From Arthrobacter bambusae (GTDB lineage: Bacteria > Actinomycetota > Actinomycetes > Actinomycetales > Micrococcaceae), in assembly GCF_022606295.1 (NCBI RefSeq), contig NZ_JAHHZS010000007.1, positions 113,587-177,586 of the forward strand: a stretch of 64,000 nucleotides of DNA, given 5' to 3'. The notes beneath the pieces were generated by a model, which had not been told where the DNA came from, made no database searches, and worked only from the letters and a program-made list of their open reading frames with translations. Every line of letters starts with the position of its first letter. Within the stretch, counting starts at the first letter, position 1. Both the position numbers and the translations under genes were made by a program. Positions 10,221 through 54,588 of this stretch are shown here, in pieces.

Positions 10221-10247
10221 CTATCGGCTGCAGTCGCCCACGCGTTA
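10221..10247 (-). promoter_or_regulatory. Sigma-28-type promoter of the flgN-flgK-flgL-fliW operon
   Basis: On the minus strand TAAC (10247-10244), exactly 15 bases, then GCCGATAG (10228-10221). The extended form CTAACG matches the flgB and flbD promoters. It lies 90 bases upstream of the flgN ATG. Confidence 0.75.
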
Positions 10248-10341
10248 GGCGTTGTTCATACATGATTTGTCTGCTTTGTCCAGTCAAGCGGCGCCCTGCG
10301 GATTTTGTGGGCTGCCGCAAAATTTCCCTGCGGATTTTTGC

Positions 10342-10368
10342 TAACCAAAAGGAACGTTGTTCCGATAA
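10342..10368 (+). promoter_or_regulatory. Sigma-28-type promoter of fliC
   Basis: TAAC (10342-10345), exactly 15 bases, then TCCGATAA (10361-10368), close to the FliA consensus TAAA-N15-GCCGATAA. It is 62 bases upstream of the fliC ATG, and transcription should begin near 10375. Confidence 0.8.
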
Positions 10369-10378
10369 CCAGAAGTGA

Positions 10379-10396
10379 CAGGCCACGGACGGCCTG
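10379..10396 (+). promoter_or_regulatory. CsrA-type hairpin in the fliC leader
   Basis: CAGGCC (10379-10384) pairs perfectly with GGCCTG (10391-10396), leaving the six-base loop ACGGAC with GGA at 10387-10389. The Shine-Dalgarno CACGGAGG (10417-10423) carries the same ACGGA core 32 bases downstream. This repeats the two-site layout of the Bacillus hag leader, where bound CsrA blocks ribosome access. CsrA and FliW are both encoded here. Confidence 0.65.
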
Positions 10397-10430
10397 GAGT
10401 ACCAGCAGACCCAATCACGGAGGAAACACC

Positions 10431-11318
10431 ATGGGCATGGCAATCAACACAAACCTGATGGCGAACAACGCCTACCGCAACCTCAGCAACACCCAGAACG
10501 ACGTGGCCAGCTCGATGCAGAAGCTTTCCAGCGGCCTGCGCATCAACAGTGCAGCTGACGACGCTGCCGGCCTGACCATCTCCGAAGGCCTCAAGTCCCA
10601 GGTTTCCGGTTCTGCCGTTGCAGCCCGCAACGCCCAGGACGGCATCTCGGTCATCCAGACCACGGAAGGCGCACTCGGCGAAGTCACCTCGATCCTGCAG
10701 CGCATGCGCGACCTTGCCGTCCAGGGCTCGTCTGACACGAACAACGCCAATGCGCGTGCAGCCATCAAGACCGAAGGCGACTCCCTCGGCCAGGAACTCG
10801 ACCGCCTGACCAAGGGTACGAACTTCAACGGCATCGACCTGCTCAAGGGCAACACCGGCACCGGCGTTTCCGCCACCGGCACCCTGAGCATCCAGGTCGG
10901 CACCGGCAGCACCGGCAACGACAAGATCGACATCAAGGTCGGCGACGTAGCCACGGCGGTCGGCAACCTGTCCGGCGCAGCCGGGGCCACCGACTTCAAC
11001 GTCACCGACACGGTGGCTGGCGACGGTACAGCTAGCGCAAACGCTCAGGCGACGATCGCCAAGATCGACACGGCGATCAAGAACATCACCACCCAGCAGG
11101 CAGGTCTGGGTGCCACCCAGAACCGCCTGCAGCACGCGATCAACACCCTGAACGTCTCCGGTGAGAACCTGCAGGCCGCACAGTCCCACATCACCGACGT
11201 CGACATGGCCCAGGAAATGGTCAAGTTCACCAAGGCCAACATCCTGCAGCAGGCCGGTACGGCCATGCTGGCACAGGCCAACCAGTCCGGCCAGGGTGTC
11301 CTCAAGCTCCTCGGCTAG
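10431..11318 (+). CDS. fliC: Flagellin
   Basis: This 295-residue filament subunit has the conserved N-terminal D0/D1 region (AINTNLMANNAYRNL, LSSGLRINSAADDAAGL, IQTTEGALGEVTSILQRMR) and the C-terminal D1/D0 region (NRLQHAINTL, DVDMAQEMVKFTKANIL, QAGTAMLAQANQ). The short variable middle is Gly/Thr rich. The ATG at 10431 is chosen because GGAGG lies seven bases upstream and homologues begin MG(M)AINTN. It is transcribed from a sigma-28-type promoter, and the leader has CsrA-type sites. A long hairpin separates it from fliD. Confidence 0.97.
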   Translation: MGMAINTNLMANNAYRNLSNTQNDVASSMQKLSSGLRINSAADDAAGLTISEGLKSQVSGSAVAARNAQDGISVIQTTEGALGEVTSILQRMRDLAVQGSSDTNNANARAAIKTEGDSLGQELDRLTKGTNFNGIDLLKGNTGTGVSATGTLSIQVGTGSTGNDKIDIKVGDVATAVGNLSGAAGATDFNVTDTVAGDGTASANAQATIAKIDTAIKNITTQQAGLGATQNRLQHAINTLNVSGENLQAAQSHITDVDMAQEMVKFTKANILQQAGTAMLAQANQSGQGVLKLLG

Positions 11319-11343
11319 AACCGGACCGCCTAGCGGATCCATC

Positions 11344-11429: not shown

Positions 11430-12830
11430 GTGGGAACATCGATTGACGGCCTCGCCAGCGGCCTGAACACCACCTCGATGATCGACGCGCAGATGGCCGT
11501 GGAAGCACTGCCCCAGCAGCAGCTGCAGGCCAAGGTCACCTCCGACCAGTCGATGATCAACGCGCTCAACAGCCTCAACACCCGCGTGACAGTGTTGAAC
11601 TCCCTTGCCACGTCCATCTCAGCGCCGGGCGCGACCAATCTGTTCACGGCCACCACGAACAACCCGGCCGTCACGGCCACCGCGTCCACCACGGCGACCA
11701 CGGGCTCGATCGATGTGACGGTGACCCAGTTGGCGTCCACGAAAGTCGGTGTCACCGAAGCCCTCACCACGTGGCCCACCGATGCGTCCGGCAACCCGGC
11801 ACACCTCACGCTGGTTGACAAGAGCGGCAAGGCCACCGAAATCACCCCCGCTTCCACGAGCCTTGACGATGTGGTCAAGGCCGTTAATGCCGCCGCCGGG
11901 GGAGCGACCGCGGTGAAGGTCCCGGCCGGCAACGGCACTTATCGCCTGCAACTGACCTCCAGCACGAGCGGCGCAGCGGGCGACTTCCAGGCCTATCAGG
12001 GCACTGCCGCCGATGTCACCGCAGGGACTGCAACGGACCTGTTTGCCGCGCCCACTGCCGCCATCGTCAAACCGGCTGCGGATGCCCAGGCTGTCCTGTA
12101 TGCCGGAACCGCAGCGCAGCAGACCATCACTTCGTCCAACAACACGTTCAGCGAGATCCTTCCCGGGGTTTCGGTGACCGCAACGGCCGTGAGCTCCTCA
12201 CCGGTCACCGTCACTGTCGCAAGCGACACCGCCGGCATCACAAAGAAGGCCAGCGACCTGGTCTCATCGGTGAACGATCTTTTGGGCTACATCGCGACCA
12301 GCAGCGCGGTGAGCACGACCACGAGCGCCGCCGGTGTCGCCAGCGCCCAGGGCGGTATCTTCACCGGAAACAGCTCCGTGCGGGGTATCAGCGACGCCGT
12401 TACCGAAGCGGTGGTGGCCCCGGTGAACGGCAAATCGCCCTCCGAATACGGCATCGTCATCGAAAAGGACGGCACCTTCACCTTCGACAGCGGCAAGTTC
12501 GCCTCGGCGATGGCGGCCGACCCGGCCGGAACCCAGTCCGCCTTGTCGCAGATCGCCACGAGGGTCGCCTCGGCCGCGACGAACGCCTCGGACCCGGTGA
12601 GCGGCTCCATACCGCAGCTGATCAAGGGGCAGCAGTCCGAAGTGACGGATCTGACCTCCCAGATCGCCGATTGGGATGTCAGGCTCGCGGACCGCCGCGC
12701 CTCCCTCAAGGCTGTCTACACCAACATGGAGGTCCTGCTCGGTGGCCTGAAGTCCCAGGCATCGTGGCTCACCGGCCAGATCTCCGCCCTGTCCAGCTCG
12801 TCCTCATCCTCCTCGTCGTCAGGAAACTAG
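11430..12830 (+). CDS. fliD: Flagellar filament cap / hook-associated protein 2
   Basis: This 466-residue protein forms the filament cap that guides flagellin folding. The N-terminus MGTSIDGLASGLNTTSMIDA is the FliD_N signature and the C-terminal part has the coiled-coil region (IADWDVRLADRRASLKAVYT, NMEVLLGGLKSQASWL). It ends in a serine-rich tail of about ten Ser, encoded by a TCC/TCG-rich run. The start is GTG with GGAAGGAA upstream. The middle is rich in Ala/Thr/Val. Confidence 0.95.
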   Translation: MGTSIDGLASGLNTTSMIDAQMAVEALPQQQLQAKVTSDQSMINALNSLNTRVTVLNSLATSISAPGATNLFTATTNNPAVTATASTTATTGSIDVTVTQLASTKVGVTEALTTWPTDASGNPAHLTLVDKSGKATEITPASTSLDDVVKAVNAAAGGATAVKVPAGNGTYRLQLTSSTSGAAGDFQAYQGTAADVTAGTATDLFAAPTAAIVKPAADAQAVLYAGTAAQQTITSSNNTFSEILPGVSVTATAVSSSPVTVTVASDTAGITKKASDLVSSVNDLLGYIATSSAVSTTTSAAGVASAQGGIFTGNSSVRGISDAVTEAVVAPVNGKSPSEYGIVIEKDGTFTFDSGKFASAMAADPAGTQSALSQIATRVASAATNASDPVSGSIPQLIKGQQSEVTDLTSQIADWDVRLADRRASLKAVYTNMEVLLGGLKSQASWLTGQISALSSSSSSSSSSGN

Positions 12831-12833
12831 ACC

Positions 12834-13265
12834 GTGACAGCCACAGCACTTCGAGCCAGCCAGCTCAGCAAGTACAACACCGACGCGATCCTCTCGGCCC
12901 CACCGGCCAGGCTCCTCACCATGCTGTACGACCGCCTCCTGCTGGACCTGGGCCGCGCCCAATTCGCCCAGGAGAACGCCGATTGGGGCGTCGCCAGGGA
13001 AAACCTCCTGCATGCCCAGGCGATCGTCACGGAGTTGTCCTCCACCTTGAAGACCGACGCTTGGGATGGCGCCCCCGGACTGCTGAGCATCTACCAGTAC
13101 TCGATGGAAGCCTTGATCGGGGCCAACATCTACCGCGACGTCAACCGGACCAAGGAATGTATCGCGCTGCTGGAACCGCTGCGGCAAGGCTGGCATGACG
13201 CCTCTTCGCAGCTTCCTGCCCAGGGCGCGACCGCCAGCACGATCGGGACCCTCGGTGTCGGCTGA
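12834..13265 (+). CDS. fliS: Flagellin export chaperone
   Basis: This 143-residue helical protein has the FliS pattern YNTDAILSAPPARLLTMLYD, with RENLLHAQAIVTELSSTL and IYQYSMEALIGANIYRDV. FliS binds the flagellin C-terminus and keeps it unfolded for export. It starts with GTG three bases after the fliD stop. Confidence 0.93.
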   Translation: MTATALRASQLSKYNTDAILSAPPARLLTMLYDRLLLDLGRAQFAQENADWGVARENLLHAQAIVTELSSTLKTDAWDGAPGLLSIYQYSMEALIGANIYRDVNRTKECIALLEPLRQGWHDASSQLPAQGATASTIGTLGVG

Positions 13266-13545: not shown

Positions 13546-13577
13546 AGAAAAGTACCGAAAACTATCCCTGAATCGAC

Positions 13578-13604
13578 TAACGGATCCTCGGCGCGTGCCG
13601 ATGG
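13578..13604 (+). promoter_or_regulatory. Sigma-28-type promoter of the flgB-flgE operon
   Basis: TAAC (13578-13581), exactly 15 bases, then GCCGATGG (13597-13604). It shares the extended CTAACG start with the flgN and flbD promoters. It lies 76 bases upstream of the flgB start. Confidence 0.7.
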
Positions 13605-13680: not shown

Positions 13681-14022
13681 GTGTTCGACTCAGTGACTTC
13701 TGTTGCGCTTGGCAGCGCCCTGGATGGGCTCTCCTTGCGCCAGAACACCATCGCCAACAACATCGCGAACATCAATACCCCGAACTACCACGCCAAAAGG
13801 GTGCAGTTCGAAGACGCGCTCGCGGCCTCGGTGAGCGCCGGTAATGGTTACGCTGCACCCACGGTGTCTACGTCGCAGGAACCCACCCAGCTCAACGGCA
13901 ACAACGTGAACCTGGACACGGAAACCCTCTCCAACGTGGACACCGTCCTGCGCTACCAGTTCGCGGCCCGGGCCGTCGGAGACGAATTCACCGCGATCCG
14001 CACGGCCCTGAGGACCAGCTGA
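13681..14022 (+). CDS. flgB: Flagellar proximal rod protein
   Basis: This 113-residue protein starts with GTG; GCAGG lies upstream. It has the rod-family motif IANNIANINTPNYHAKRVQF and the C-terminal NVDTVLRYQFAARAVGDEF. It opens the long flgB-flgC-fliE-fliF operon and overlaps flgC by one base. Confidence 0.95.
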   Translation: MFDSVTSVALGSALDGLSLRQNTIANNIANINTPNYHAKRVQFEDALAASVSAGNGYAAPTVSTSQEPTQLNGNNVNLDTETLSNVDTVLRYQFAARAVGDEFTAIRTALRTS

Positions 14023-14414
14023 TGACTTTCGACGCGATCGGCATTGCCGGCTCCGCCCTGACTGTCCACCGCAAGTGGCTCGATGCCGTCTCGGACAACC
14101 TCGCGAACATCAACGACGTGTCCCGCACCAGCGGCAAGGCCTTCCAAGCCCGCTACGTCGAAGCCGCCGAAGGCAGCGATGGAAACGGTGTGTACGTCAA
14201 GAGCACCCCCCAGGGCAGTGCCACCGGCAGGCTGGTGTACCAACCGGACCATCCCCTTGCCGACGCCCAGGGGTACGTGCGTTACCCGGACATCGACCTC
14301 TCCGAACAAATGGGTGCGCTGATTGTGGCGCAACGCGGCTACCAGGCCAACGCGCAAGTTGTCGACCGTGCCCGTGAGACTTACCAAGCAGCGCTCGAGA
14401 TAGGAAAATCCTGA
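14022..14414 (+). CDS. flgC: Flagellar proximal rod protein
   Basis: This 130-residue protein carries AIGIAGSALTVHRKWLDAV with VSDNLANINDVSRTSGKAF, and the C-terminal helix LIVAQRGYQANAQVVDRARE. The start overlaps the flgB stop and its own stop overlaps fliE by one base, so translation is coupled. Confidence 0.95.
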   Translation: MTFDAIGIAGSALTVHRKWLDAVSDNLANINDVSRTSGKAFQARYVEAAEGSDGNGVYVKSTPQGSATGRLVYQPDHPLADAQGYVRYPDIDLSEQMGALIVAQRGYQANAQVVDRARETYQAALEIGKS

Positions 14415-14755
14415 TGGCTTTGGACCCGATCGGCGCAATTCAGGGCAGCGGGGGTCTTTCCGTGCAGGGCGTCACCGGCACCGGCTACCTGGGCAGCACA
14501 GACAGCGTCAGCGGAACCACCGGGGCGGCGGGCGGCAACGGCTTTGCGACGGCGCTGACCGGTGCCGTGGACAACCTCCAGTCACTGCAATCGACGTCGA
14601 ACCAGCTGGCGGTATCTGCGGTGACGGGCAACCTCGACGACATCCACAAAGCGACGATCGCCGCCACGCGCGCCCAGATCACCATGGAGCTTGTCTCCAC
14701 GGTACGGAACAAGGGCGTTGACGCGTTCAACGAGATCATGAGGATGCAGGCCTGA
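14414..14755 (+). CDS. fliE: Flagellar MS-ring/rod junction protein
   Basis: This 113-residue protein has the FliE core DNLQSLQSTSNQLAVSAVTG, then LDDIHKATIAATRAQITMEL and VSTVRNKGVDAFNEIMRMQ. It joins the MS ring to the rod. It overlaps flgC and fliF by one base each. Confidence 0.95.
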   Translation: MALDPIGAIQGSGGLSVQGVTGTGYLGSTDSVSGTTGAAGGNGFATALTGAVDNLQSLQSTSNQLAVSAVTGNLDDIHKATIAATRAQITMELVSTVRNKGVDAFNEIMRMQA

Positions 14756-16374
14756 TGCCCCCACAGATTGCCGCTTTCTTCCGCAAGATAGGCGATGGAT
14801 TCAAGGGCTTCACCGCCGGGCAGCGCACCATCGCCATCATCGGCATCGCCGTCCTGGTGCTCGGCGGAGTGGCCCTGTCAGCATGGTTGGGGAAGCCGTC
14901 CTACTCGCCGCTGTTCTCGGGCTTGAAGGACACGGACGCCAACAGCATCGTGGAGCAGCTGCGCAAGGACAACGTCCCGTACGAGCTCAGCAACGGCGGT
15001 TCCACCATCCTTGTCCCCGACGACAAGGTCAACGACGAACGGCTGAAAGCGGCCGCGGCGGGCCTGCCGGCGGCCGCGGCCACCGGCTATTCGCTGCTGG
15101 ACAAGCTCGGAGTGACCTCCTCCGAATTCCAGCAGACCGTGACGTACAAGCGCGCGCTTGAGGGCGAACTCGCCACCACCATCCAGGCCATGGACGGCGT
15201 CAAGACCGCCGCCGTTCAGCTCGCCCTTCCGGCAAAAACGGTGTTCACCGCTACGACTCCCGACGCCACGGCATCCGTGTTCGTGGAAACGCAGCCGGGT
15301 ATCACCCTGTCCGCAGATAAGGTCCAGGCAATCGTGCACTTGACCTCGGCGGCGATCGAAAACCTGAAGCCAACGAACGTGACCGTGGTGGACTCCCAAG
15401 GCAACGTCCTCTCCACTGTGGGTGGGGGAGCCACAGGGTCCTCGTCCAAGCAAGCCGCCGACTACCAGCAACGCACCTCCGATTCGGTGAAGGCCGTCCT
15501 GGACCGGGTAGTCGGCCCCGGCAACGCCACCGTCGCGGTCGCGGCCGACGTGACTGCAGAGTCCGCGCAGCAGCGCAGCGAGACCTTCTCCACCGCCAAG
15601 GATGCCGCTCCGCTCAGCGAGAGCACCAAGACCGAGAAGTACACGGGAACCGGCGGCGGCGCCTCCGGTGTCCTGGGCCCGGACAACATTGCCGTGCCGG
15701 GCGGCACCAACGGCAACGGGACCTTCGACTCCAGCGACACCACCAAGAACAACGCCGTCAACAAGGTCACGGAGGACCGCACCATTCCGCAAGGCGCCCT
15801 CAAACGCCAGACGATCTCCGTCGCCATCAACCAGGCCGCGGCGGCCGGACTCAACGTCAACTCCGTCAAGGCGCTCGTCACTTCCGCGGCCGGCGTCGAT
15901 CCCACCCGCGGCGACGTGGTCACGGTTGAGGTGCTGCCCTTCAGCACTTCCGCTGCAGACGCAGCGACACAGGCGCTGGGCGCGGCAAAAGCGCAAGCCG
16001 ATGCCAAGCAACAGTCGGATTTGATGAATACCCTCATCCTGGCCGGAAGCGTCCTGCTGGCCGTGGTCGCGCTGATTGTGCTGGTGCTGATCCTCCTGCG
16101 CCGCCGCCAGCGCCGCGAGCCCGTCGACCTTGGCGAGCGGATGGACTACGAGATGCTGCCCCCAGCGGTGTCCGCTCCGGCGCTCGAAGGGCCCCCCGCC
16201 ACGTCGGCGATCGAACTGCCGCCTGTGCATCCGGTTCCGGCGTTGCCGATGTCCGGAGCCGAAGCTCTCGACGGCGAACGGCGGCGGGCGCAGATTGAGG
16301 CCATGGTTGCCGAGAACCCGGCACGGACCGCCGATTACCTGCGGGGACTCATGGATGAAAGGCAGCCGGTATGA
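14755..16374 (+). CDS. fliF: Flagellar MS-ring protein
   Basis: This 539-residue protein is the basal-body membrane ring. TM1 is at residues about 24-44 (IAIIGIAVLVLGGVALSAWL) and TM2 at about 425-447 (LILAGSVLLAVVALIVLVLI). Between them are the ring-building motifs (YSPLFSGLKDTDANSIVEQL, TTIQAMDGVKTAAVQLALP, NVTVVDSQGNVLS). The C-terminal tail with ENPARTADYLRGLM is the FliG-binding helix. It overlaps fliG by four bases (ATGA). Confidence 0.96.
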   Translation: MPPQIAAFFRKIGDGFKGFTAGQRTIAIIGIAVLVLGGVALSAWLGKPSYSPLFSGLKDTDANSIVEQLRKDNVPYELSNGGSTILVPDDKVNDERLKAAAAGLPAAAATGYSLLDKLGVTSSEFQQTVTYKRALEGELATTIQAMDGVKTAAVQLALPAKTVFTATTPDATASVFVETQPGITLSADKVQAIVHLTSAAIENLKPTNVTVVDSQGNVLSTVGGGATGSSSKQAADYQQRTSDSVKAVLDRVVGPGNATVAVAADVTAESAQQRSETFSTAKDAAPLSESTKTEKYTGTGGGASGVLGPDNIAVPGGTNGNGTFDSSDTTKNNAVNKVTEDRTIPQGALKRQTISVAINQAAAAGLNVNSVKALVTSAAGVDPTRGDVVTVEVLPFSTSAADAATQALGAAKAQADAKQQSDLMNTLILAGSVLLAVVALIVLVLILLRRRQRREPVDLGERMDYEMLPPAVSAPALEGPPATSAIELPPVHPVPALPMSGAEALDGERRRAQIEAMVAENPARTADYLRGLMDERQPV

Positions 16375-17399
16375 GGGCCGGGGAGTTGGACGTCGGCGGC
16401 TTGACCGGCGCCCAGAAGGTGGCCGTGGTGCTGATGCAGATGAGCCCGGCCAGCGCAGCCTCCCTCATGACCCAGTTCTCAGAGTCCGAGGCCGAGGACA
16501 TCGCGGGCGAGATCGTGCGCTTGCGCCGCGTCTCGTCAGCCGTGGCGGACCATGTCCTGACAGAATTCCACGACCTTGCGGTCAGCGGGCGCCGCACGGC
16601 CCGCGGCGGCCAGGAATTCGCCGTCGGGCTCCTGGAAGCGTCCTTCGGTGCGGACAAAGCCGCCGGTTTCATGGACCGTCTCGCATCCACGATGGCCGGG
16701 AAGTCCTTCGAATTCCTGGAAATGATGGATCCCGGCCAGCTCCTGGCCCTCATCGACGGCGAAATGCCGCAGACCATTGCCTTGATCCTGGCGCATTTGC
16801 GGCCAGGCAAGGCATCCGCCGTCATGGCCGGCCTGGGCGACGTGCAACGGAGTGAGGTGGCCCGTTGCATCGCCACCATGGGGATGGCTTCGCCGGAAGC
16901 CGTAGGCATCGTGGCCGAGACCCTCAAGGTTCGCGCCGGAGCCGTCATGTCGCAAAGGAAGTCGAGTGAGATTGTGGGCGGCATCCAACCCCTCGTCGAC
17001 ATCATCAACCGATCCGACATCAACACCGAGCGCTCCGTGTTGGAAGGCCTGGAAACCCTCGATCCGGAGCTGGCCACGGAAGTGCGCGCCCGGATGCTGA
17101 CGTTCGTGGACATCGTGAAGTTGGAACGCCGCGACATCCAGCAGATCCTGCGCGGCGTTAATGCCGAAGTGCTCGCCGTCGCCATGAAGGGTGCGCCCGC
17201 CGCGGTGCTCGAGGCAGTGCGCACCAACGTTTCCGGGCGCAACCTCGAAATCCTCGAAGCCGAGATGGCTTCCGCCGGGCCTGTGCGCGCCTCCCAGGTT
17301 GAAGAGGCGCGGGCAGAGATTGTCCGTTCCATCCGTGAGCTTGAGGCCGAAGGCGCCATCGTGGTCCGGCGCGGCGAAGAAGACGACTATGTCTACTGA
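16371..17399 (+). CDS. fliG: Flagellar motor switch protein
   Basis: This 342-residue protein is the C-ring subunit that contacts MotA. The N-terminal domain has LTGAQKVAVVLMQMSPASA, the middle QTIALILAHLRPGKASAVM, and the C-terminal domain a charged helix region with DIVKLERRDIQQILRGVNAE. The length matches the family. It overlaps fliF and fliH. Confidence 0.95.
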   Translation: MRAGELDVGGLTGAQKVAVVLMQMSPASAASLMTQFSESEAEDIAGEIVRLRRVSSAVADHVLTEFHDLAVSGRRTARGGQEFAVGLLEASFGADKAAGFMDRLASTMAGKSFEFLEMMDPGQLLALIDGEMPQTIALILAHLRPGKASAVMAGLGDVQRSEVARCIATMGMASPEAVGIVAETLKVRAGAVMSQRKSSEIVGGIQPLVDIINRSDINTERSVLEGLETLDPELATEVRARMLTFVDIVKLERRDIQQILRGVNAEVLAVAMKGAPAAVLEAVRTNVSGRNLEILEAEMASAGPVRASQVEEARAEIVRSIRELEAEGAIVVRRGEEDDYVY

Positions 17400-18003
17400 G
17401 GCCGGACTCCGGAGGGTGGTCTTCCCGGACATCCAGCCGGCCACGAGCTCACGCAAGGAGGACCGGGGGTACACCCAGGGACACGCGGCAGGCTACGCGG
17501 CCGGAATCCGGGCAGCGGCCGCCGAACAGCTGGGTCTCCGGGAACAGCTTCAAGCCGAACACCGCGCAATGCTCGACGCCGGGCGCCTGGCCGTGGGGCA
17601 CGCTGTCCGTGCGCTCGAAGCGGCGGCCGCCGAGTCCCGGCAGCGCCGCGGCGCCGTGCTGGAGGAAGCACAGGACGTCTTGGCAGCCGGTGCGATGGAA
17701 CTCGCCGAAGCCATCCTGGGCTACGAGCTCAACGACGGCGCGAACACCGCCCGCGCCGCTTTGGCCCGGGCCCTGGCAACGGCTTCCGACGTGCAAACAG
17801 TGACCACTGTCCGGCTCCACCCGGAGGACCTCGCCGCGCTGACCGCCGTCGACATCGGGAGCGTGGCCGGCGTCGAACTCAAGGCCGATCCCGCACTGGA
17901 CCGCGGCGATGCGATCGCGGAGTATCCGCAGGGCTGGCTCGACGCCCGGCTCGGTACCGCGGTGGACAGGGCCAAAGCAGCCCTGTTGGGGAACGACGCA
18001 TGA
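17389..18003 (+). CDS. fliH: Flagellar assembly protein FliH
   Basis: This 204-residue, soluble, alanine/glutamate-rich coiled-coil protein starts at the ATG at 17389, overlapping fliG by 11 bases. It contains GYTQGHAAGYAAGIRAAAA, of the GxxxG type seen in FliH, and a C-terminal part with VRLHPEDLAAL that matches FliH/YscL E2 domains. It regulates the FliI ATPase. Confidence 0.88.
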   Translation: MSTEAGLRRVVFPDIQPATSSRKEDRGYTQGHAAGYAAGIRAAAAEQLGLREQLQAEHRAMLDAGRLAVGHAVRALEAAAAESRQRRGAVLEEAQDVLAAGAMELAEAILGYELNDGANTARAALARALATASDVQTVTTVRLHPEDLAALTAVDIGSVAGVELKADPALDRGDAIAEYPQGWLDARLGTAVDRAKAALLGNDA

Positions 18004-19331
18004 GCCTTACCGCATACCGGCCGCACGCAGGCCGTTTCCGCGCAGCCCTCGCCGCCGCGGCACCGCAGCGGGTGGGCACTGTGACGTCCGTGCTCGGCCT
18101 CGGCCTGGAGGTCTCCGGGTTGGACTGCGCGGTGGGAGATCTGGTCACCATCGGTGAGGCCCCAGGACTCGACGCCGAAGTGGTCGCCTCAGTCAGTGGC
18201 GCCGTGCGCTGCATGCCGCTGGGACGGTTGACCGGAGTGGCCGCGGGAGACCCGGCCCGTTCCAAAGGCGCTCCGATCCTGGTCCCTACCGGCCGCGGCC
18301 TTTTCGGGCGGGTATTGGATGGGCTCGGGCGTCCGATCGACGGCAAGGGCCCATTGCCCGCGAGTCCCATGGTCCCCCTGGACAACGAAGCCCCGTCCGC
18401 GATGCACCGCGCCCGGGTGGACACCCCGCTCCAGACGGGCGTCCGTGTCCTGGACACCATGGCCACTCTTGGCCGCGGTCAGCGCATGGGGCTGTTCGCA
18501 GGCTCGGGCGTCGGCAAGTCCTCGCTGCTGTCCATGATCGCCCGCGGCACCGACGCCGAAGTCTCCGTGATTGCCTTGGTGGGGGAGCGCGGGCGCGAAG
18601 TGCGGGAGTTCCTGGAAGATGACCTCGGTCCCGAAGGCCTGGCCCGTTCAGTGGTGGTTATTGCAACGTCCGATGAACCTGCCCTGATGCGCTTGCGCGC
18701 CGCCGTCACGGCCACCCGGATTGCCGAATCCTTCCGCGAGGCCGGCCAGGACGTGGTGCTCATGATGGATTCGCTGACCCGTGTGGCCATGGCCCAGCGC
18801 GAAATCGGCCTCTCCGCCGGAGAACCTCCCGCCACCCGCGGCTACCCGCCGTCGACCTTTTCCGTGCTGGCGCGGCTCCTGGAACGCGCCGGCACCGCCG
18901 AAACCGGATCCGTGACCGGTATCTACACGGTGCTGGTGGACGGCGACGACCACAACGAACCGATCGCCGACGCCGCCCGCTCGATTCTCGACGGACACGT
19001 GGTCCTGGACCGGAAGCTCGCCGTCACGGGGCACTTCCCCTCGGTGGACGTCCTTGGATCGGTGTCCCGCGTGGCTTCCAAGGTCAACTCCGCTGATCGC
19101 ACTGCGCTCGCGGCCTCCCTGCGCAGGGTCCTCGCCGCGCGGCGCAGCACGCAGGACCTGATCGACGTTGGGGCCTACCACCGTGGCAGCAATCCCTTGG
19201 TTGACGCGGCGCTGGACCATGAAGCCGCCATCAACGGGTTCCTGCAGCAAAGCATGGACGATTCCACCCCGTACAGCGAGTCGTGGCCGGAACTCTTCCG
19301 CCTCTCCGCAAGCCTCGAAGGAGCCGCGTGA
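18000..19331 (+). CDS. fliI: Flagellar export ATPase
   Basis: This 443-residue ATPase of the flagellar type III export gate has Walker A GLFAGSGVGKSSLL (about residues 162-175), Walker B VVLMMDSLTR (about 250-259) and LSAGEPPATRGYPPSTFSVL typical of FliI. The ATG overlaps the fliH stop (ATGA) and the fliI stop overlaps the fliJ start (GTGA). Confidence 0.96.
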   Translation: MSLTAYRPHAGRFRAALAAAAPQRVGTVTSVLGLGLEVSGLDCAVGDLVTIGEAPGLDAEVVASVSGAVRCMPLGRLTGVAAGDPARSKGAPILVPTGRGLFGRVLDGLGRPIDGKGPLPASPMVPLDNEAPSAMHRARVDTPLQTGVRVLDTMATLGRGQRMGLFAGSGVGKSSLLSMIARGTDAEVSVIALVGERGREVREFLEDDLGPEGLARSVVVIATSDEPALMRLRAAVTATRIAESFREAGQDVVLMMDSLTRVAMAQREIGLSAGEPPATRGYPPSTFSVLARLLERAGTAETGSVTGIYTVLVDGDDHNEPIADAARSILDGHVVLDRKLAVTGHFPSVDVLGSVSRVASKVNSADRTALAASLRRVLAARRSTQDLIDVGAYHRGSNPLVDAALDHEAAINGFLQQSMDDSTPYSESWPELFRLSASLEGAA

Positions 19332-19753
19332 ACCGTCAGTTCTCCCTGGCCGGGCTGTTGCGCCTGCGCCAGACCCAGCAGGATGCCGCTGCCAGCGGCC
19401 TGGCGCGCGCCAACTCCCGGACCGCGTCCTTGCGATCCCGGCGCGCTACCGCCCGGGAAGAGCTGGCCGAATCCGCCGGAGATCCCGGAAGCTCCGCGTC
19501 GCTCCTGGCCATCGCGGCCTCCCGCGCGTCCGCGCAAAGCATGTTGGCTGAGCTTGACGCCTTGGCCGCCAGCGCGGAAGCTGAAGCCGCCGAGGCCCGT
19601 GCCGAATACACCGAGGCAAAGCGCCGGGCCGTGGGACTGGAGAAACTCGAAACCCGTCACGGCGCCGCTTTCGAGGCTTACGCGCTGCACGCCGAACAAA
19701 GCGTGCTGGACGAGATCGCGTCCTCCGCGTGGCACCGGAAGGCCACCTCATGA
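19328..19753 (+). CDS. fliJ: Flagellar export stalk protein FliJ
   Basis: This 141-residue, all-helical, Ala/Arg/Glu-rich coiled coil lies directly after fliI. Its GTG start overlaps the fliI stop by four bases and its stop overlaps the next ATG by four. FliJ inserts in the FliI hexamer; sequence conservation is low, so the call rests on length, coiled coil and synteny. Confidence 0.85.
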   Translation: MNRQFSLAGLLRLRQTQQDAAASGLARANSRTASLRSRRATAREELAESAGDPGSSASLLAIAASRASAQSMLAELDALAASAEAEAAEARAEYTEAKRRAVGLEKLETRHGAAFEAYALHAEQSVLDEIASSAWHRKATS

Positions 19754-20526
19754 GCATGGCGGAGGCCATCGGGCGCATCCAAAGCATCCAATCGGTGTTG
19801 CAGCAACTTAGCCAAGGCATCAGCCCGCAAGCAACTTCCGCGACGGCCGACCCTTCCGCGACGGCCGACCCTTCCGCGGGTACGGCCTCTTCGACGGACG
19901 CGGCGTCCTTCGCGCAAGCGCTGAGCACCGCCGTCGGGGGATCGACGACGCCGGACGTCAGCCAGTTCGCTTCTTCCTTGGGCCTCGACGGCACCGCGGG
20001 CCTCGACGGCACCGCGGGCCTCGACGGCACCGCGGGTCTCGCGGGAACTGCGGGCCTCTCCGGCGTTGCAGCCCTCCCCGGCAATGCCGCGCTCTCCGGC
20101 ATTGCGGGCCTCGGAGTGCTTTCGGGGGTCGGAACCGGCACGGCCGCCGGCGGTGTCACCGGCGATGCCGTAGTGGCTGACGCCAGGAAATACGTGGGCG
20201 TGCCCTACGTGTGGGGCGGCACGGACCCGGCCGTTGGCATGGATTGCTCGGGCTTCGTGCAGCGCGTCTTCAAGGATCTCGGCGTCAATCTGCCGCGCGT
20301 CGTCAGCGATCAAATGCGCCAAGGCACGCCGGTGGCGTCCTTGGCCCAGGCCAAGCCCGGCGACCTCCTGGTCAGTTTCGGCGGCGAACACATCTCCATC
20401 TACCTTGGCAACGGCAAAGCGATCGACGCTCCCGTCCCCGGCCAGACCATCCAGATCCGCGATGCGTGGGAACAGCAGTCCAACTTGACCGCGATCCGCC
20501 GCATAGTCCCGGCGGGAGGCTCGTGA
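19750..20526 (+). CDS. NlpC/P60 (C40) peptidoglycan hydrolase in the flagellar operon
   Basis: This 258-residue protein has an N-terminal helical region (MAEAIGRIQSIQSVLQQL), a repetitive Ala/Gly/Ser linker (residues about 30-135), and a C-terminal NlpC/P60 domain with DARKYVGVPYVWGG, catalytic Cys166 in DCSGFVQ and His214 in GGEHISIYLG. There is no signal peptide, so export would have to go through the flagellar type III gate. In this operon position (before fliK-flgD) it could do the work of FlgJ, cutting the cell wall for the rod. FlgJ normally carries a glucosaminidase-type domain, whereas this family cuts peptide stems. Confidence 0.85.
   Translation: MSMAEAIGRIQSIQSVLQQLSQGISPQATSATADPSATADPSAGTASSTDAASFAQALSTAVGGSTTPDVSQFASSLGLDGTAGLDGTAGLDGTAGLAGTAGLSGVAALPGNAALSGIAGLGVLSGVGTGTAAGGVTGDAVVADARKYVGVPYVWGGTDPAVGMDCSGFVQRVFKDLGVNLPRVVSDQMRQGTPVASLAQAKPGDLLVSFGGEHISIYLGNGKAIDAPVPGQTIQIRDAWEQQSNLTAIRRIVPAGGS
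19841..19876 (+). repeat. 18-bp in-frame tandem duplication in the C40 linker
   Basis: The unit CGACGGCCGACCCTTCCG is present twice exactly, in frame, giving ATADPS twice. Confidence 0.9.
19981..20034 (+). repeat. 18-bp in-frame triple repeat in the C40 linker
   Basis: Three identical GGCCTCGACGGCACCGCG units encode GLDGTA three times; decayed copies (GLAGTA, GLSGVA, ALPGNA, ALSGIA) continue downstream to about 20110. Confidence 0.9.
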
Positions 20527-22004
20527 TGCAGTTGCCTCCCGCCGTTGCGGCCTCCCCGCGTCCGGCTGTTCCGGGCTCTCCACTGGTGCCGCAGCTTGGC
20601 GCCTCCGCCGGTTTCGAGTCAGTGATGAACAGCGTGCTGGCATCGGACGCGAAGACCTCCGATGGGCCCGCGCAGCAAGCGCCCGACGGCGGCGCGCAGG
20701 GGAAGCCCGCAGCCGACGGTACCGTGCCGCTCGCCCGAGCCGCCAAGCCGGAGGGGACGAAGGTCCCCAAGGACACGGTGGATGCGGCGGGTGCTGTGGA
20801 TGCGGCAGGTGTCGTTGCGGGTGCTGTTGCCGCTGTTGCGGCAGGTGCTGTTGCGGGCGCGGCCGCAGCCGGCGGTCCCGCAGCCGGGACCGCTGCTCCG
20901 CAGACGGGCAGCTCGGGCGGCGCTGTGCCGGTCAAAGTCGGCGTGGTTGACGGTACGGCGCCGGCCAGAGTGGTTGCAGGCACGCTGGCCACGGCAGGCC
21001 TTGCCGTAGGGGTGGATACGGGCAGCATCCAGGCGGCGCTGACGGCAAACCCGGCGCCTTCGAACGCCCCCGGTACTTCGGCCCAAGGGCCTGTGGTCCC
21101 TCCTCTTTTGGTCCCTGCTCCCTCTGTGCCGGCAGTGCTGGTCGGAAAGCCTGGTCAAAGCTCACGCCAGACCGGTCAGATCCCGGCCAGCCCATTGCCG
21201 GCCAGTCTGCAGCCTGCCGGCACTCAACCGTCGAGCCCGTTGCCCGCGAGCCCCCTCCCCGGAACCGCGCTGCCCACTAAACCGTTGCCCGCCGGCCCCG
21301 AACCCGGGGTCAACGCGACCGCGGCCCCGGCAGGCGAGTCCGCCACCGCCGTCGCACTTCCCGCCGGGAAACCTGCGACGCAGCAGGAGCCACAGCGGAT
21401 CCTCGGGCAGGACACTCCCGCCGCCCCGGCACTCGCGCTTCCTGCGGGGATTCCTGCGGGGATTCCTGCGGGGATTCCGGCTGGGATACCGGTGGTGGTG
21501 CAGCCAGCGTCGCCGCTCCAGGAAGCTCCTTCGGCGGCCCCCGCAGGCATGGCACCACTCACGCCCCAGGCAGACCCGGCGAAACTCGTGCCACAAGTGT
21601 CCGGGCCGCTGTTCTCCCTGGCCTCGGCGGCGCCCGGCGCCCATGTCATGACCTTGAAGCTGTCCCCGGAAGACCTCGGCCCGCTGACGGTCCGGGCCCA
21701 TATCGACGGTTCAGGGGTGCGGATCGAATTGTTCGCCCCCGGAGAAGCAGGCCGCGAGGCAGTGCGCAGCATCCTGCCGGAACTGCGGCGCGGACTCGGC
21801 GAATCAGGCTTCGGCGCCAGCCTCGACCTGTCCGAACACAACGCTCCGGCCGATGCCGGCGCGGGAGGCTCGGACCCCCGGGACCGACGCCCGGCCGATA
21901 GCCCCGCCTTCCCGCGCGGCAGCGACGGCGAGCCGGTTCGCCTGCCGCGGACCGCCGTCGTACCTCCCCGAAGCAGTACCAGCAGCCTGGACATTCTTGT
22001 CTGA
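20526..22004 (+). CDS. fliK: Flagellar hook-length control protein
   Basis: This roughly 492-residue molecular ruler has a long Ala/Pro/Gly/Val low-complexity middle and a conserved C-terminal Flg_hook domain from about residue 365 (HVMTLKLSPEDLGPLTVRAH, RIELFAPGEAGREAVRSILP). The ATG at 20526 overlaps the preceding stop; GTG at 20523 is directly adjacent and in frame, so either may be used. The middle contains a 12-bp triple repeat (21441-21476). The gene is followed by an AAGGAG signal for flgD. Confidence 0.9.
   Translation: MQLPPAVAASPRPAVPGSPLVPQLGASAGFESVMNSVLASDAKTSDGPAQQAPDGGAQGKPAADGTVPLARAAKPEGTKVPKDTVDAAGAVDAAGVVAGAVAAVAAGAVAGAAAAGGPAAGTAAPQTGSSGGAVPVKVGVVDGTAPARVVAGTLATAGLAVGVDTGSIQAALTANPAPSNAPGTSAQGPVVPPLLVPAPSVPAVLVGKPGQSSRQTGQIPASPLPASLQPAGTQPSSPLPASPLPGTALPTKPLPAGPEPGVNATAAPAGESATAVALPAGKPATQQEPQRILGQDTPAAPALALPAGIPAGIPAGIPAGIPVVVQPASPLQEAPSAAPAGMAPLTPQADPAKLVPQVSGPLFSLASAAPGAHVMTLKLSPEDLGPLTVRAHIDGSGVRIELFAPGEAGREAVRSILPELRRGLGESGFGASLDLSEHNAPADAGAGGSDPRDRRPADSPAFPRGSDGEPVRLPRTAVVPPRSSTSSLDILV
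21441..21476 (+). repeat. 12-bp triple repeat in the fliK ruler region
   Basis: CCTGCGGGGATT occurs three times exactly, encoding PAGI repeats in the ruler region, where repeat number could change hook length. Confidence 0.85.
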
Positions 22005-22020
22005 TGAAGGAGACCCAATA

Positions 22021-50121: not shown

Positions 50122-50128
50122 CACTGCC

Positions 50129-50155
50129 TAACGGGAGGCTCCCTCCGGCCGACAG
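50129..50155 (+). promoter_or_regulatory. Sigma-28-type promoter of the flbD-motA-motB operon
   Basis: TAAC (50129-50132), exactly 15 bases, then GCCGACAG (50148-50155), with the extended CTAACG start. It lies 56 bases upstream of flbD. Confidence 0.68.
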
Positions 50156-50210: not shown

Positions 50211-50465
50211 ATGATCGTTGTCACCCGCCTGAACGGCACCCGCTTTGCCGTGAATCCGGACATCATTGAACGGATCCACGAAAGCCCGGACACCCATCTG
50301 GTGACGCTCGACGGCGCCACGTATGTCGTGCGGGAAAGCCTCTCGGAGGTCGTGGACCTGATTGCGAACTACCGGGCCTATATTCTTCGGCGGGCACAGG
50401 ATCTCCCCATCGTGACGGGCTATCCGCTGAGCCTCGTGCGCACCCCGGACACGGACGGAAGGTAA
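50211..50465 (+). CDS. flbD: FlbD/SwrD-family flagellar protein
   Basis: This 84-residue protein has the FlbD pattern MIVVTRLNGTRFAVNPDIIE and SPDTHLVTLDGATYVVRESL. In Bacillus the homologue SwrD raises stator power. It is three bases upstream of motA. In related clusters it follows flgE directly; here it lies 26.5 kb from flgE. Confidence 0.88.
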   Translation: MIVVTRLNGTRFAVNPDIIERIHESPDTHLVTLDGATYVVRESLSEVVDLIANYRAYILRRAQDLPIVTGYPLSLVRTPDTDGR

Positions 50466-50468
50466 GCC

Positions 50469-51296
50469 ATGGATCCCTCGACAATAATCGGCCTGTTCCT
50501 GGCCTTCGGTTCGGTGGTCGCCATGGTGACCCTCGAAGACGCCAACCTCATGGCCCTCCTGCTTCCCGCGCCCATGGTCCTGGTTTTCGGGGCCACCTTG
50601 GCCGTGGGACTGGCCGGGAACACGTTCCGCGATACCGTCCGGGCGTTCAAGGACCTCCCCAAGGCGTTCAAGGGAAAGACGGACAAGCCCCAGGACAGCA
50701 TCGACCAACTGATCGGCTTCGCCGAGAAGGCGCGCAGCGAGGGTCTCCTCTCCCTCGAAGAGGCGGCCACGGAGGAGAAAGATCCCTTTCTGGCCCGTGC
50801 ACTGCAGAACATCGCCGACGGCACGGATGCCGAAGAGCTGCGCATCCTCATGGAAGACGAGATCGACTCCAAGATGCGCAGCGACCACGTCTCCGCCAAA
50901 TTCTTCGCCAGCCTGGGGGGCTACGCGCCGACCATCGGCATTATCGGCACCGTGGTATCGCTGACCCACGTCCTTGAGAACCTTTCCTCGCCCGATCATC
51001 TGGGGCCGATGATCGCCTCCGCTTTCGTGGCAACCCTGTGGGGTTTGTTGTCCGCGAACTTCATCTGGCTGCCTTTCAGCTCGAGGCTCAAGCGACTTTC
51101 CGAGCTGGAAATCGAACGCATGACCCTCCTGATGGAGGGCATGCTGGCGGTGCAGAACGGGACCCAGCCCCTCCTCCTCGCCGAACGGCTCCGCGCCATG
51201 GTTCCCCCGGACCGGCTCGGCAACGCGAAAACAGCAAGCAAGGGCGACGACGACGAAACGCGCCCCGGCAAATTCGCTTCGTCCAAGGCCGCATGA
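50469..51296 (+). CDS. motA: Flagellar motor stator protein
   Basis: This 275-residue, four-helix proton channel subunit has the cytoplasmic loop with FAEKARSEGLLSLEEAATEE and the TM3 region GGYAPTIGIIGTVVSL with the conserved Pro. Start ATG; its stop overlaps motB by four bases (ATGA). The C-terminus is a long charged tail. Confidence 0.95.
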   Translation: MDPSTIIGLFLAFGSVVAMVTLEDANLMALLLPAPMVLVFGATLAVGLAGNTFRDTVRAFKDLPKAFKGKTDKPQDSIDQLIGFAEKARSEGLLSLEEAATEEKDPFLARALQNIADGTDAEELRILMEDEIDSKMRSDHVSAKFFASLGGYAPTIGIIGTVVSLTHVLENLSSPDHLGPMIASAFVATLWGLLSANFIWLPFSSRLKRLSELEIERMTLLMEGMLAVQNGTQPLLLAERLRAMVPPDRLGNAKTASKGDDDETRPGKFASSKAA

Positions 51297-52090
51297 GGTC
51301 CCGACGCCGCCGCGGCTCACCTCCCGCCGAAGAGCACGTCGACGAACGCTGGATGGCGTCCTACATGGACATGGTCACCGTGCTCATGTGCATGTTCATC
51401 GTGCTCTTCGCAATGTCCACCGTGGACCAGGCCAAATTCGACAAGCTCCGCAACTCGCTGGCCACGGGATTCGGCACGGTGGTCAGCCAGAAGGTGGACA
51501 CCGCCACCGGGACCGTCGTTCCGCCGGAATACACCAGCGCCGACGCCCAGGGATTCTCCAACTTGGACCTCGCGCTGAAGGAAGCGGCCCGGCTCACCGC
51601 TTTGCGCGACGACATGAAGTCCAAGCTCGACGCCGCGGGGCTGGGTGCCAATGTGCAGTTCCAGATCAACGAACGCGGGCTCACCGTGAAACTCGTAGGA
51701 TCGCAGACCTTCTTCGAACCCGACCGGCCGGACCTCACGCCCCGCGCGAGCCAGGTTCTTGGCATGATTGCCCCGACCATGGCCAAGGCGGCCCTCGAAA
51801 TCATGGTGGAAGGCCATGCCGCCAACGGGGTCACCTCGTATCCCTCCACGTGGGAGCTTTCGTCCGCGCGTTCCGTCAACGTCCTCAGGTACCTCGTCGA
51901 CCACGGGGGCATTTCGGCAGGGCACATCGGCGCAGTCGCGTACGGATCCGCCCGGCAGGTCAACGACGATTCCACCGAGGCGCTCATGGAACTCAACCGC
52001 AGGGTCGACGTCGTCGTCCTCTCGGACAAGCCCGAAGTGGTCCGCGCCCTGATCCCCGAGGCGCTCAAGGCGAGGGCCGGTGGCCAGTAG
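51293..52090 (+). CDS. motB: Flagellar motor stator protein
   Basis: This 265-residue protein has a basic N-terminus, one membrane helix with the essential proton-carrying Asp (WMASYMDMVTVLMCMFIVLF), and a C-terminal OmpA-like peptidoglycan-binding domain (EIMVEGHAANGVTSYPSTWE, LSSARSVNVLRYLVDHGG, NRRVDVVVL). It is not followed by fliL. Confidence 0.95.
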   Translation: MRSRRRRGSPPAEEHVDERWMASYMDMVTVLMCMFIVLFAMSTVDQAKFDKLRNSLATGFGTVVSQKVDTATGTVVPPEYTSADAQGFSNLDLALKEAARLTALRDDMKSKLDAAGLGANVQFQINERGLTVKLVGSQTFFEPDRPDLTPRASQVLGMIAPTMAKAALEIMVEGHAANGVTSYPSTWELSSARSVNVLRYLVDHGGISAGHIGAVAYGSARQVNDDSTEALMELNRRVDVVVLSDKPEVVRALIPEALKARAGGQ

Positions 52091-52613: not shown

Positions 52614-52646
52614 CTGCTTGATACGCCGTAGCCGGCAGATATACGC

Positions 52647-52679
52647 CAGAGGTTCCGTCCTGACAGGGCGGGACCTCTG
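52647..52679 (+). terminator. Hairpin after the AraC gene
   Basis: CAGAGGTTCCGTCC pairs with GGGCGGGACCTCTG around TGACA (one mismatch and one wobble). No T run follows. Confidence 0.45.
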
Positions 52680-52802
52680 CTGCGTCCTGGACGCTTGCCG
52701 GGCGGGACAGCATCACCGCGGGATCACCGCGGGAAAACAGTCACATTTGATTTGCGGAAGATACATGCCGTCATTACCGCATTTGAGGATTATTCTGATG
52801 CC

Positions 52803-53213
52803 ATGCCAAATATTCGAGTATCTGAAGCAGCTCGTTTCCTGGGCGTCAGTGACGATACCGTCCGGCGCTGGACCGAGAACGGCATCCTGACCCCGGTAAA
52901 GGATGATTCCGGGCGGCTGGCCGTGGACGGGCTGGAACTTGCCCACCTCGCGCGGGACCAGGCGCAGCTGCCCGAGGATCCCACCAGGGTGGGCCGCTCT
53001 GCACGCAACCGCTTCGTCGGACTGGTCACCGGCATCACGGCCGACACGGTCATGGCAAAAGTGGAACTGCAATGCGGTCCCTTCCGTGTCGTATCCCTCA
53101 TGAGCAGCGAGGCCGTCCGGGAGCTCGGACTCGAACTCGGCTCGGTCGCCACAGCCGTGGTCAAGGCCACCACAGTCATGATCGAAACACCCCAAGGAAA
53201 GAGCGCCATATGA
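52803..53213 (+). CDS. HTH-TOBE protein (molybdate-responsive regulator candidate)
   Basis: This 136-residue protein has an excisionase/MerR-type helix (IRVSEAARFLGVSDDTVRRW) and a C-terminal TOBE (molybdate-binding) domain at about 70-136 (RNRFVGLVTGITADTVMAKV, SSEAVRELGLELG). It overlaps the modA start by four bases. The likely role is molybdate sensing. Confidence 0.85.
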   Translation: MPNIRVSEAARFLGVSDDTVRRWTENGILTPVKDDSGRLAVDGLELAHLARDQAQLPEDPTRVGRSARNRFVGLVTGITADTVMAKVELQCGPFRVVSLMSSEAVRELGLELGSVATAVVKATTVMIETPQGKSAI

Positions 53214-54022
53214 GGATCACCCGCAAGCCCTTCGCCGCATTGCTCGTTGCCGGCGCCCTCGCGGCCAGCCTGGCAGGCTGCGGTTCAGGAAGTCCCGCCA
53301 GCACTGTCAGCAGCGGATCCGACAGCGCCAGCGCGACGCCTAGGCTTTCGGGCACGGTGACGGTCTACGCGGCTGCCTCGCTGAAGGCAACATTCACCAA
53401 GCTGGCGAGCGAATTCGAGGCAGCGAACCCGGGTACCAAAGTGGCACTGAGTTTCGCGGGGTCATCTGATCTCGTCACGCAGATCACCCAAGGCGCTCCG
53501 GCGGACGTCTTTGCCTCGGCCGACACCAAGAACATGGCCAAGCTCTCCGACGCCAAGCTGCTCGACGGAACGGCCAAGAACTTCGCCACCAACGTCCTGA
53601 CCATCGCCGTCCCGCCGTCGAACCCGGCGTCGATCAGTTCCTTCGCGGATCTGGCCAAGCCGGGCGTCAAGGTGGTGGTCTGCGCCAGCCAAGTGCCGTG
53701 CGGCTCCGCGGCGCAAACCATCGAAAAGGCCACCGGTACAACCTTGAAGCCCGTCAGTGAAGAGTCATCCGTGACTGACGTCCTGGGCAAGGTGGCCTCC
53801 GGCGAGGCCGACGCCGGACTCGTCTACGTCACCGACGTCAAGGGCGCCGGGGACAAAGTCAAGGGCATCACCTTCCCCGAGGCGGACAAGGCCGTCAACA
53901 CGTACCCGATCGGCACCGTGGGCACCAGCAAGAACAAGGACCTGGCCGCGGCATTCATCGCATTGGTGACGGGAAGCGAAGGCAAGAAGGTTCTCGGCGA
54001 CGCCGGCTTCGGGACTCCGTAG
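53210..54022 (+). CDS. modA: Molybdate ABC transporter substrate-binding lipoprotein
   Basis: This 270-residue protein has a lipobox (LAGC at about 21-24), then the ModA pattern VTVYAAASLKATFTKLASEF, SFAGSSDLVTQI, APADVFASADTKNM and EADAGLVYVTDV. It follows the TOBE regulator. No modB or modC is adjacent; the permease and ATPase must be elsewhere or lost. Confidence 0.9.
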   Translation: MRITRKPFAALLVAGALAASLAGCGSGSPASTVSSGSDSASATPRLSGTVTVYAAASLKATFTKLASEFEAANPGTKVALSFAGSSDLVTQITQGAPADVFASADTKNMAKLSDAKLLDGTAKNFATNVLTIAVPPSNPASISSFADLAKPGVKVVVCASQVPCGSAAQTIEKATGTTLKPVSEESSVTDVLGKVASGEADAGLVYVTDVKGAGDKVKGITFPEADKAVNTYPIGTVGTSKNKDLAAAFIALVTGSEGKKVLGDAGFGTP

Positions 54023-54087
54023 CCTCCCGCGGGAAGCGAGCAGGATTCGAGAAGCGCGTGCGGGCGCAGCGGACTAGCGTCGTTGCC

Positions 54088-54588
54088 ATGACTATTTCAC
54101 TGCAGTACTCACACATCACTGTTAACGATCCCGACGAAGCACTCACCTTCTATCGGGATGCCCTCGGCCTCGAGGTGCTCAACGACGTGGCACAAGGCGG
54201 ATTCCGTTGGGTGACGCTCGGCAGCACGGACCAGCCGGGTGTTGAAATCGTGCTTTCCGAACCGCACGCGGGCCGGTCCAAGGCCGACGGCGACTCCCTC
54301 CAGGAGCTGCTCACCAAGGGCGTCCTGGGGCCGATCGTCTTCCGTTCCGACGACGTCGACACGCTCTTCGAGAAGGTCAGGGCTTCCGGCGCTGAGGTCA
54401 TGCAGGAGCCAATCGACCAGCCATGGGGTCCCCGCGACTGCGCCTTCCGTGATCCTTCGGGCAACATGGTGAGGATTCCCAGGCTCCGGCCGCATAGCCT
54501 GCGCCCGCGCTGGTGGGTGCGGCCCCGGGCCACACCCGCCAGCCGCCCGAAAACTCGTCACTTACGCCTGCACTTTCCTTGCCGATAG
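54088..54588 (+). CDS. VOC-superfamily (glyoxalase-like) protein
   Basis: This 166-residue protein has the VOC pattern ISLQYSHITVNDPDEALTFY, LGPIVFRSDDVDTLFEKVRA and WGPRDCAFRDPSGNMVRI. The last roughly 34 residues are unusually rich in Arg and Pro and look like read-through past the normal family end. The TAG stop overlaps the -10 box of the fliM promoter. Confidence 0.85.
   Translation: MTISLQYSHITVNDPDEALTFYRDALGLEVLNDVAQGGFRWVTLGSTDQPGVEIVLSEPHAGRSKADGDSLQELLTKGVLGPIVFRSDDVDTLFEKVRASGAEVMQEPIDQPWGPRDCAFRDPSGNMVRIPRLRPHSLRPRWWVRPRATPASRPKTRHLRLHFPCR
54562..54588 (+). promoter_or_regulatory. Sigma-28-type promoter of the fliM operon
   Basis: TTAC (54562-54565), exactly 15 bases, then GCCGATAG (54581-54588). 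The expected transcription start (54595-54597) coincides with the fliM GTG, so the mRNA may be leaderless. Confidence 0.6.

Follow-up and report, generated by a model that had tools for sequence, protein, structure and literature searches.

A shared CT(A/T)AC box ahead of five flagellar units in Arthrobacter bambusae, a candidate promoter of a divergent FliA sigma factor

Results

The window analyzed here is a 64,000-nucleotide stretch of the Arthrobacter bambusae genome (G000:C71:113587-177586) whose end coincides with the end of contig C71, and it carries a flagellar gene cluster that Pfam matches and gene order resolve into five units, each preceded by one copy of a shared two-part box. Comparison with relatives suggests that these five boxes are very probably promoters of a divergent FliA, whose changed region-4 helix would read CT(A/T)AC at the -35 position, with the GCCGAT core kept at -10. 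The seven nearest relatives by FlgK are all named Arthrobacter (identity 86-92%). The inventory of units covers the window, and FliM and FlgM were searched genome-wide, FliM giving one match in the whole genome.

On the minus strand, the first unit comprises flgN (9631..10131, PF05130), flgK (8134..9555, PF22638), flgL (7243..8130, flagellin N and C domains PF00669/PF00700, named from its position) and fliW (6860..7246, PF02623). Pattern scans, which located all five candidate promoters, place the one of this unit at 10221..10248, with CTAAC at 10248-10244, the -10 GCCGATAG at 10228-10221 and a spacer of 15 bases. The other four units lie on the plus strand. The flagellin gene fliC (10431..11318, PF00669/PF00700, in the open reading frame [ORF] 10305-11318) is followed by fliD and fliS (11430..13265; PF07195, PF02465, and PF02561), and its box lies at 10341..10368 (CTAAC and TCCGATAA). 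The early unit, running from flgB, flgC and fliE to flgE and including fliJ, fliK and flgD (13681..23695; PF02050, PF03963, PF02120, and Flg_bbr_C), has its box at 13577..13604 (CTAAC and GCCGATGG); within it flgB, flgC, fliE, fliF, fliG, fliH and fliI were named from gene order alone. The fourth unit, flbD-motA-motB (50211..52090), follows a box at 50128..50155 (CTAAC and GCCGACAG), and its FlbD is a small PF06289 protein, which we take to be distinct from the Caulobacter activator of the same name. The fifth begins with fliM (54597..55493, Pfam FliM, GTG start in ORF 54513-55493) and continues through fliN, fliO, fliP, fliQ, fliR, flhB and flhA (55490..61878; Pfam, with fliQ named from position), with its box at 54561..54588 (CTTAC and GCCGATAG). 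Because the -10 of this last box ends 8 bases ahead of the GTG, the fliM mRNA is predicted to be leaderless.

The initial annotation of this stretch had proposed a common promoter, TAAC-N15-GCCGATAG, with an invariant 15-base spacer, which is also the spacing of sigma-28 promoters. All five sites were recovered in place with that spacer, and the proposed consensus is exact at flgN, departing by one mismatch each at flgB, flbD and fliM (TTAC) and by two at fliC. A C precedes T(A/T)AC in 5/5 sites, four of which read CTAAC and one, fliM, CTTAC, and the consensus of the five sites becomes CT(A/T)AC-N15-(G/T)CCGA(T/C)RR. The resemblance of the -10 half to sigma-28 boxes was borne out by the number of positions matching GCCGATAA out of 8 (flgN 7, fliC 7, fliM 7, flgB 6, and flbD 6), GCCGATAA being, together with TAAA at -35, the sigma-28 consensus of E. 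coli and B. subtilis given in PMC8325347.

A loose pattern allowing up to three mismatches gave 28 matches in the window against 26.3 expected in shuffles, which is not above chance. The stricter CTWAC-N15-KCCGAYRR has 5 matches in the window; a scan of the 4.75-Mb genome gave 6, a count not raised over that of the reversed control pattern (5). The placing of the matches is what sets them apart, as 5 of the 6 are flagellar unit heads and the sixth (C61, L023) falls inside a 453-aa open frame. Since the five sites themselves had supplied this pattern, relatives were examined for independent evidence. A regulon of the box reaching beyond the flagellum was rejected as a candidate: among 10 non-flagellar exact matches of a looser pattern, with the genes there judged without a family search, 8 are internal to open frames, L030 overlaps a protein-kinase-like ORF at its start and L029 is outside the listed frames.

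In a set of 19 loci from named members of the Arthrobacter group, the strict box was found upstream of flgN (17/18), flgB (17/17) and fliC (10/18), and the spacers and flanks diverge among relatives while the boxes stay at unit heads. A strict or near box precedes fliM in 29/30 loci, own genome counted, at 31-50 bases from the aligned start in 28 of those 29, and a box also stands ahead of flbD in all 4 relatives in which this gene was located, its -10 being GCCGACAG in 3 of these. Scoring gave a score of at least 11 of 12 at flgN in 21/25, fliC in 9/22, flgB in 18/18 and fliM in 28/29 regions (own fliM counted), with fliC regions reaching 20/22 at a score of at least 10; the spacer of the fliC box is 16 in several relatives. 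Interior genes gave no match at a score of at least 11 (flgK 0/22, fliD 0/21, flgC 0/18, fliF 0/18, flhB 0/6, and flhA 0/6) and fliD gave 1/21 at a score of at least 10. A scrambled-motif control at that lower threshold matched at flgN in 1/25, fliC in 2/22, flgB in 1/18 and fliM in 0/29, and dinucleotide shuffles reached a score of at least 11 in 0-2 of 120-580. Two of the relatives, Arthrobacter sp. Hiyo8 (L063) and A. terricola (L069), have a split or fragmentary fliA match, and the A. terricola flgK match spans residues 66-303 only; flagellar genes may be decaying in these strains.

The presence of FliA was investigated in 197 sampled genomes of one family, taken as Micrococcaceae from the named relatives. 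None of them, own genome included, passes the FliA_WhiG (TIGR02479) cut-off of 189.6 bits, and the one sub-cut-off match in our genome is L002, SigA-like by eye. Taken alone, this result would suggest that FliA is absent, a reading overturned by full-length FliA-like matches of about 115-152 bits in at least 63 of the 197 genomes. A FliA-like protein is present in at least 62 of the 64 FliM-positive genomes, plus one FliA-like-only genome, and among the matches listed the FliM-positive exceptions are our own genome (G000), where fliA is broken at contig ends, and G080. All 19 named relatives have a FliA match, which in five is split, fragmentary or carries a stop inside the match; Paenarthrobacter aurescens TC1, whose locus L058 bears both the flgN and the flgB box, likewise encodes a FliA. 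FliA_WhiG was the best NCBIfam match of 6/6 tested FliA proteins (121-151 bits, below 189.6); the FliA of one relative matched, over regions 2 to 4, the structures of WhiG (6pfv, E 1e-21), sigma-28 (1rp3, E 4e-21) and FliA (6pmi, E 1e-20), and the best PDB matches for two tested FliA proteins were WhiG and FliA. In the loci read, fliA sits within the cluster, either between flgN and fliC (other genera) or after flhA (closest genera). For the anti-sigma factor family FlgM (PF04316), none of the 197 genomes gave a match over the cut-off and one gave a weak match (G051), with controls detected in E. coli, B. subtilis and T. maritima.

In the window, the 5' end of fliA lies at 63891..64000 on the plus strand, with a likely ribosome-binding site GGGGGGAC at 63891 and a likely TTG start at 63904, after which contig C71 ends; the piece at C71:177475-177585 shares 70% identity with the FliA of a relative over its residues 44-80. 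A search of the whole genome led to four contig ends, with N-terminal pieces at the ends of C71 and C58 and C-terminal pieces at the starts of C82 and C30. As these pieces are nearly identical in pairs, the genome appears to hold two fliA copies which broke the assembly. The pair C71 and C82 is likely the copy of the flagellar cluster, because the tail on C82 resembles the tails of relatives' FliA proteins. The second copy is located after an ORF resembling, by eye, a major facilitator superfamily transporter. The recognition helix of this FliA reads STHAAVSQQR in the fragments at the starts of contigs C82 and C30.

The relation between this helix and the -35 letters was then followed in FliA loci sampled from other families and orders of Actinobacteria, together with the named loci; within the family, the helix was read in part of the FliA-bearing genomes. 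Sites were chosen by the -10 alone and the -35 bases read with the spacer fixed at 15, and the helix class of the named loci and of 17 FliM loci was taken from the FliA of the same genome, these 17 being of the A-type described below. In loci with the helix (E/Q/R)SR(V/I)SQ (SR type), 45/54 sites read nTCA and 0 read nT(A/T)AC (64 regions, 10 without a -10, 27 loci). In loci with the helix (S/A)A(V/I)SQ (A-type), where A takes the place of R (HSA, HAA, SSA, PSA), 106/120 sites read nT(A/T)AC and 0 read nTCA (125 regions, 5 without a -10, 54 loci). Among the 14 deviating A-type sites, 11 carry the same box with a spacer of 16, the other three being CTTAAC at L102 fliM, CTTATC at L098 fliM and an unrelated sequence at L232 fliC. 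An earlier -10-based reading had contained 8 false sites among 40 of the A-type, inside a flgN-like coding region.

A third helix, SDATVSKEKKRG (DATVSK type), was found in two genomes of one genus, G102 and G133 (L261 and L262), where 3/4 sites read TGAAA (fliC twice and flgN once; 2 of 6 regions without a -10) and a further TGAAA lies ahead of flgL, the -35 at fliC, flgN and flgL being written TGAAAA. The altered residues align to positions 218-225 of E. coli FliA, which read ESRVSQLH there and mostly H(S/A)AVSQQR in the Arthrobacter clade, and the -10 core GCCGAT is conserved across the FliA types. In family f13 (L236-L238), the -35 is CTTAC and the -10 is GCCGAGAG, GCCGACAG or GCCGACAA; a region-2 change of FliA might accompany these -10 variants.

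These data change how the -35 of our window should be compared. The initial annotation had contrasted TAAC with TAAA; TAAA is indeed absent from the five sites, but the nearest comparison is the CTCA of Actinobacteria with the ordinary SR helix, against which CTAAC looks like a lineage change. It had also been observed that the box precedes early units, those for the rod (flgB) and for export (fliM to flhA), which holds for the window, where all five unit heads carry it. The accompanying view that such early-gene control is special to this organism did not survive, as in other families flgB has a CTCA box at 6 of the 10 sites read from loci with the SR helix, and early-gene boxes therefore probably predate the Arthrobacter clade.

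In a quickly built tree with 70 FliA-type rows plus 2 WhiG outgroup rows, one change is needed for the A-type helix, and the DATVSK rows stand apart on a long branch with unsure placement. Most simply, CTCA with the SR helix would be the ancestral state in the class, and one clade (families f1, f13, and f19 in the samples) would have changed once to CT(A/T)AC with A replacing R in the helix.

Two other kinds of reader were weighed against FliA. In one, a housekeeping sigma factor would act on the units together with an activator, and the boxes would be operators; the genome does encode L002, SigA-like by eye, and a bound dimer can also give fixed spacing, yet GCCGATAG is not known to serve as a SigA -10, neither half-box repeats the other and an operator is not expected to follow the FliA helix, leaving this explanation with a very slim chance. 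In the other, the reader would be a SigD-type extracytoplasmic function (ECF) sigma factor, the -35 TAACG and -10 (C)GAT of the boxes resembling the target of C. glutamicum sigma-D, for which PMC6338062 gives the motifs GTAAC(A/G) and GAT. About a dozen ECF-type sigma factors are encoded in the genome, and one of them, L015, matches the SigD domain 3vep (E 3.9e-8). Set against this, FliA exists and tracks flagella, the -10 resembles GCCGATA from end to end, the -35 changes with the FliA helix from taxon to taxon and contig C71 has no match to any sigma-70/ECF model, and we regard a SigD-type reader as highly improbable. The more radical version, in which FliA is absent and an ECF sigma factor took over, was rejected given the full-length sub-cut-off FliA in flagellated genomes and the fliA pieces at contig ends. 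The SigD-like ECF genes L014 and L015 were likewise rejected as readers, having no flagellar-type box at their starts in the locus scan. A further ECF-type sigma domain, L012 (G000:C16:74448-74912), lies in an 881-residue frame whose later part is surface-protein-like by eye.

Discussion

The explanation we prefer, a divergent FliA reading all five boxes, implies a regulatory scheme. FliA would bind the boxes, its residues corresponding to E. coli FliA 218-225 would set the -35 preference, and FliA-polymerase would start all five units, which would place the genes for rod, motor, export and filament in one tier without a FlgM checkpoint. That early and late genes share a single tier is plausible. 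The initial annotation had gone further and placed the whole hierarchy under sigma-28, a view favored by fliA at the window end, by the association of FliA with flagella and by the five boxed heads; fliA itself is without such a box, which leaves its own control outside the "whole hierarchy."

Extending this explanation to the class, we lean toward a scenario in which the actinobacterial FliA -35 code was rewritten at least twice, with regulon promoters matching (SR with CTCA, (S/A)A with CT(A/T)AC, and DATVSK with TGAAA) and the core GCCGAT kept, and in which the whole flagellum of the Arthrobacter clade, from rod to filament, would be made from one tier. A regulon survives such a code change only if the sigma factor and its promoters change together.

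Several observations weigh against these readings. No CTAAC box was found upstream of fliA in the two stretches inspected, and a FliA box at fliA was rejected as a candidate: GCCGATAG stands before the G137 fliA without CTAAC, and the matching window stretch reads GCTGATAG. The window fliA is incomplete and its helix was taken from fragments on other contigs, and the helix table leaves out 12/30 FliM loci of unpaired class plus that of our own genome. Base 7 of the -10 is G in 44/54 SR sites and A in 110/120 A-type sites, a shift on the same split which indicates that more than the -35 changed. SR loci include exceptions (CTTAAC at L240 fliC and CTTAAT at L241 flgB), and the DATVSK genomes have no TGAAA box before fliM (L263 and L264); this absence and the base 7 shift lower the odds of the code-rewriting scenario. 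On the tree, support is 62 for the exact A-type set and 98 when L232, which also has A in its helix, is added, and one row (L226) is a faulty frame with a branch length of 10. Helix and -35 swap once in the A-type clade and once in the DATVSK type, so the many sites come down to two events and are not independent data points, and the -35 change could stem from some other alteration of FliA on these long branches.

These same features give some room to the possibility that FliA reads the boxes, with the -35 and helix changes having arisen independently on the same branch: the A-type has a single origin, shared ancestry alone could pair the traits and base 7 of the -10 shifts on the same split. 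Against such independence, the third helix type pairs with a third -35, and it is the recognition helix, at the residues corresponding to E. coli FliA 218-225, that carries the changes, making independence unlikely in our assessment, though less so than either of the non-FliA readers.

Compared with sigma-28 of E. coli and B. subtilis, the system described here shares the -10 core, the 15-base spacing and a sigma factor of the FliA family, and differs in its CT(A/T)AC, in the boxes at rod, motor and export units and in that no FlgM was found. The Actinoplanes FliA consensus is reportedly of the CTCA type, and with respect to other flagellated Actinobacteria (Actinoplanes and Kineococcus), the sampled SR-helix genomes mostly have CTCA at -35 where CTAAC is found here. 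In Kineococcus, according to PMC2587704, fliA adjoins fliC and there is no FlgM, and the same paper notes this absence for flagellated Actinobacteria. WhiG, described as a sporulation sigma factor of Streptomyces in PMC4255298, belongs to the same FliA/WhiG family, and the WhiG-like outgroup rows of our tree carry the helix TESRVSQIH. By contrast, SigD of C. glutamicum, with a cell-envelope regulon according to PMC6338062, belongs to a different sigma family, and the likeness of its GTAAC/GAT to the boxes here is one of motif alone.

The FliA family, the -10 and the role of FliA in flagellar transcription are already known. For the CTAAC/CTCA split, no publication was found in literature searches, the Actinoplanes flagellar papers lying outside their reach, and for Arthrobacter or Micrococcales FliA promoters none was found, judging from titles and the openings of abstracts. 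Because each genome has few promoters and the suspect helix is short, the residue-to-base rules of the sigma-28 -35 element become directly testable, and the lineages provide naturally occurring pairs of sigma factor and promoter, which might be insulated from one another. The findings also bear on the temporal order of flagellar genes in Actinobacteria without FlgM, where early and late units share a promoter type.

Beyond the flagellar genes, an ORF on the minus strand of the window (63107-63676) is divergent from fliA and has no Pfam match, its counterpart in relatives being weakly FlgN-like. Non-flagellar genes occupy 23700-50120, between flgE and flbD, and 52137-54588, between motB and fliM, and include an arylsulfotransferase, purine/amino-acid permeases and CN hydrolases, as well as AraC, MerR-TOBE, a solute-binding protein and a glyoxalase. 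In G137, 2.1 kb separates flgE from motA, and motB adjoins fliM; in view of this compact order, the split of the flagellar units in the window seems to have occurred at promoter boundaries.

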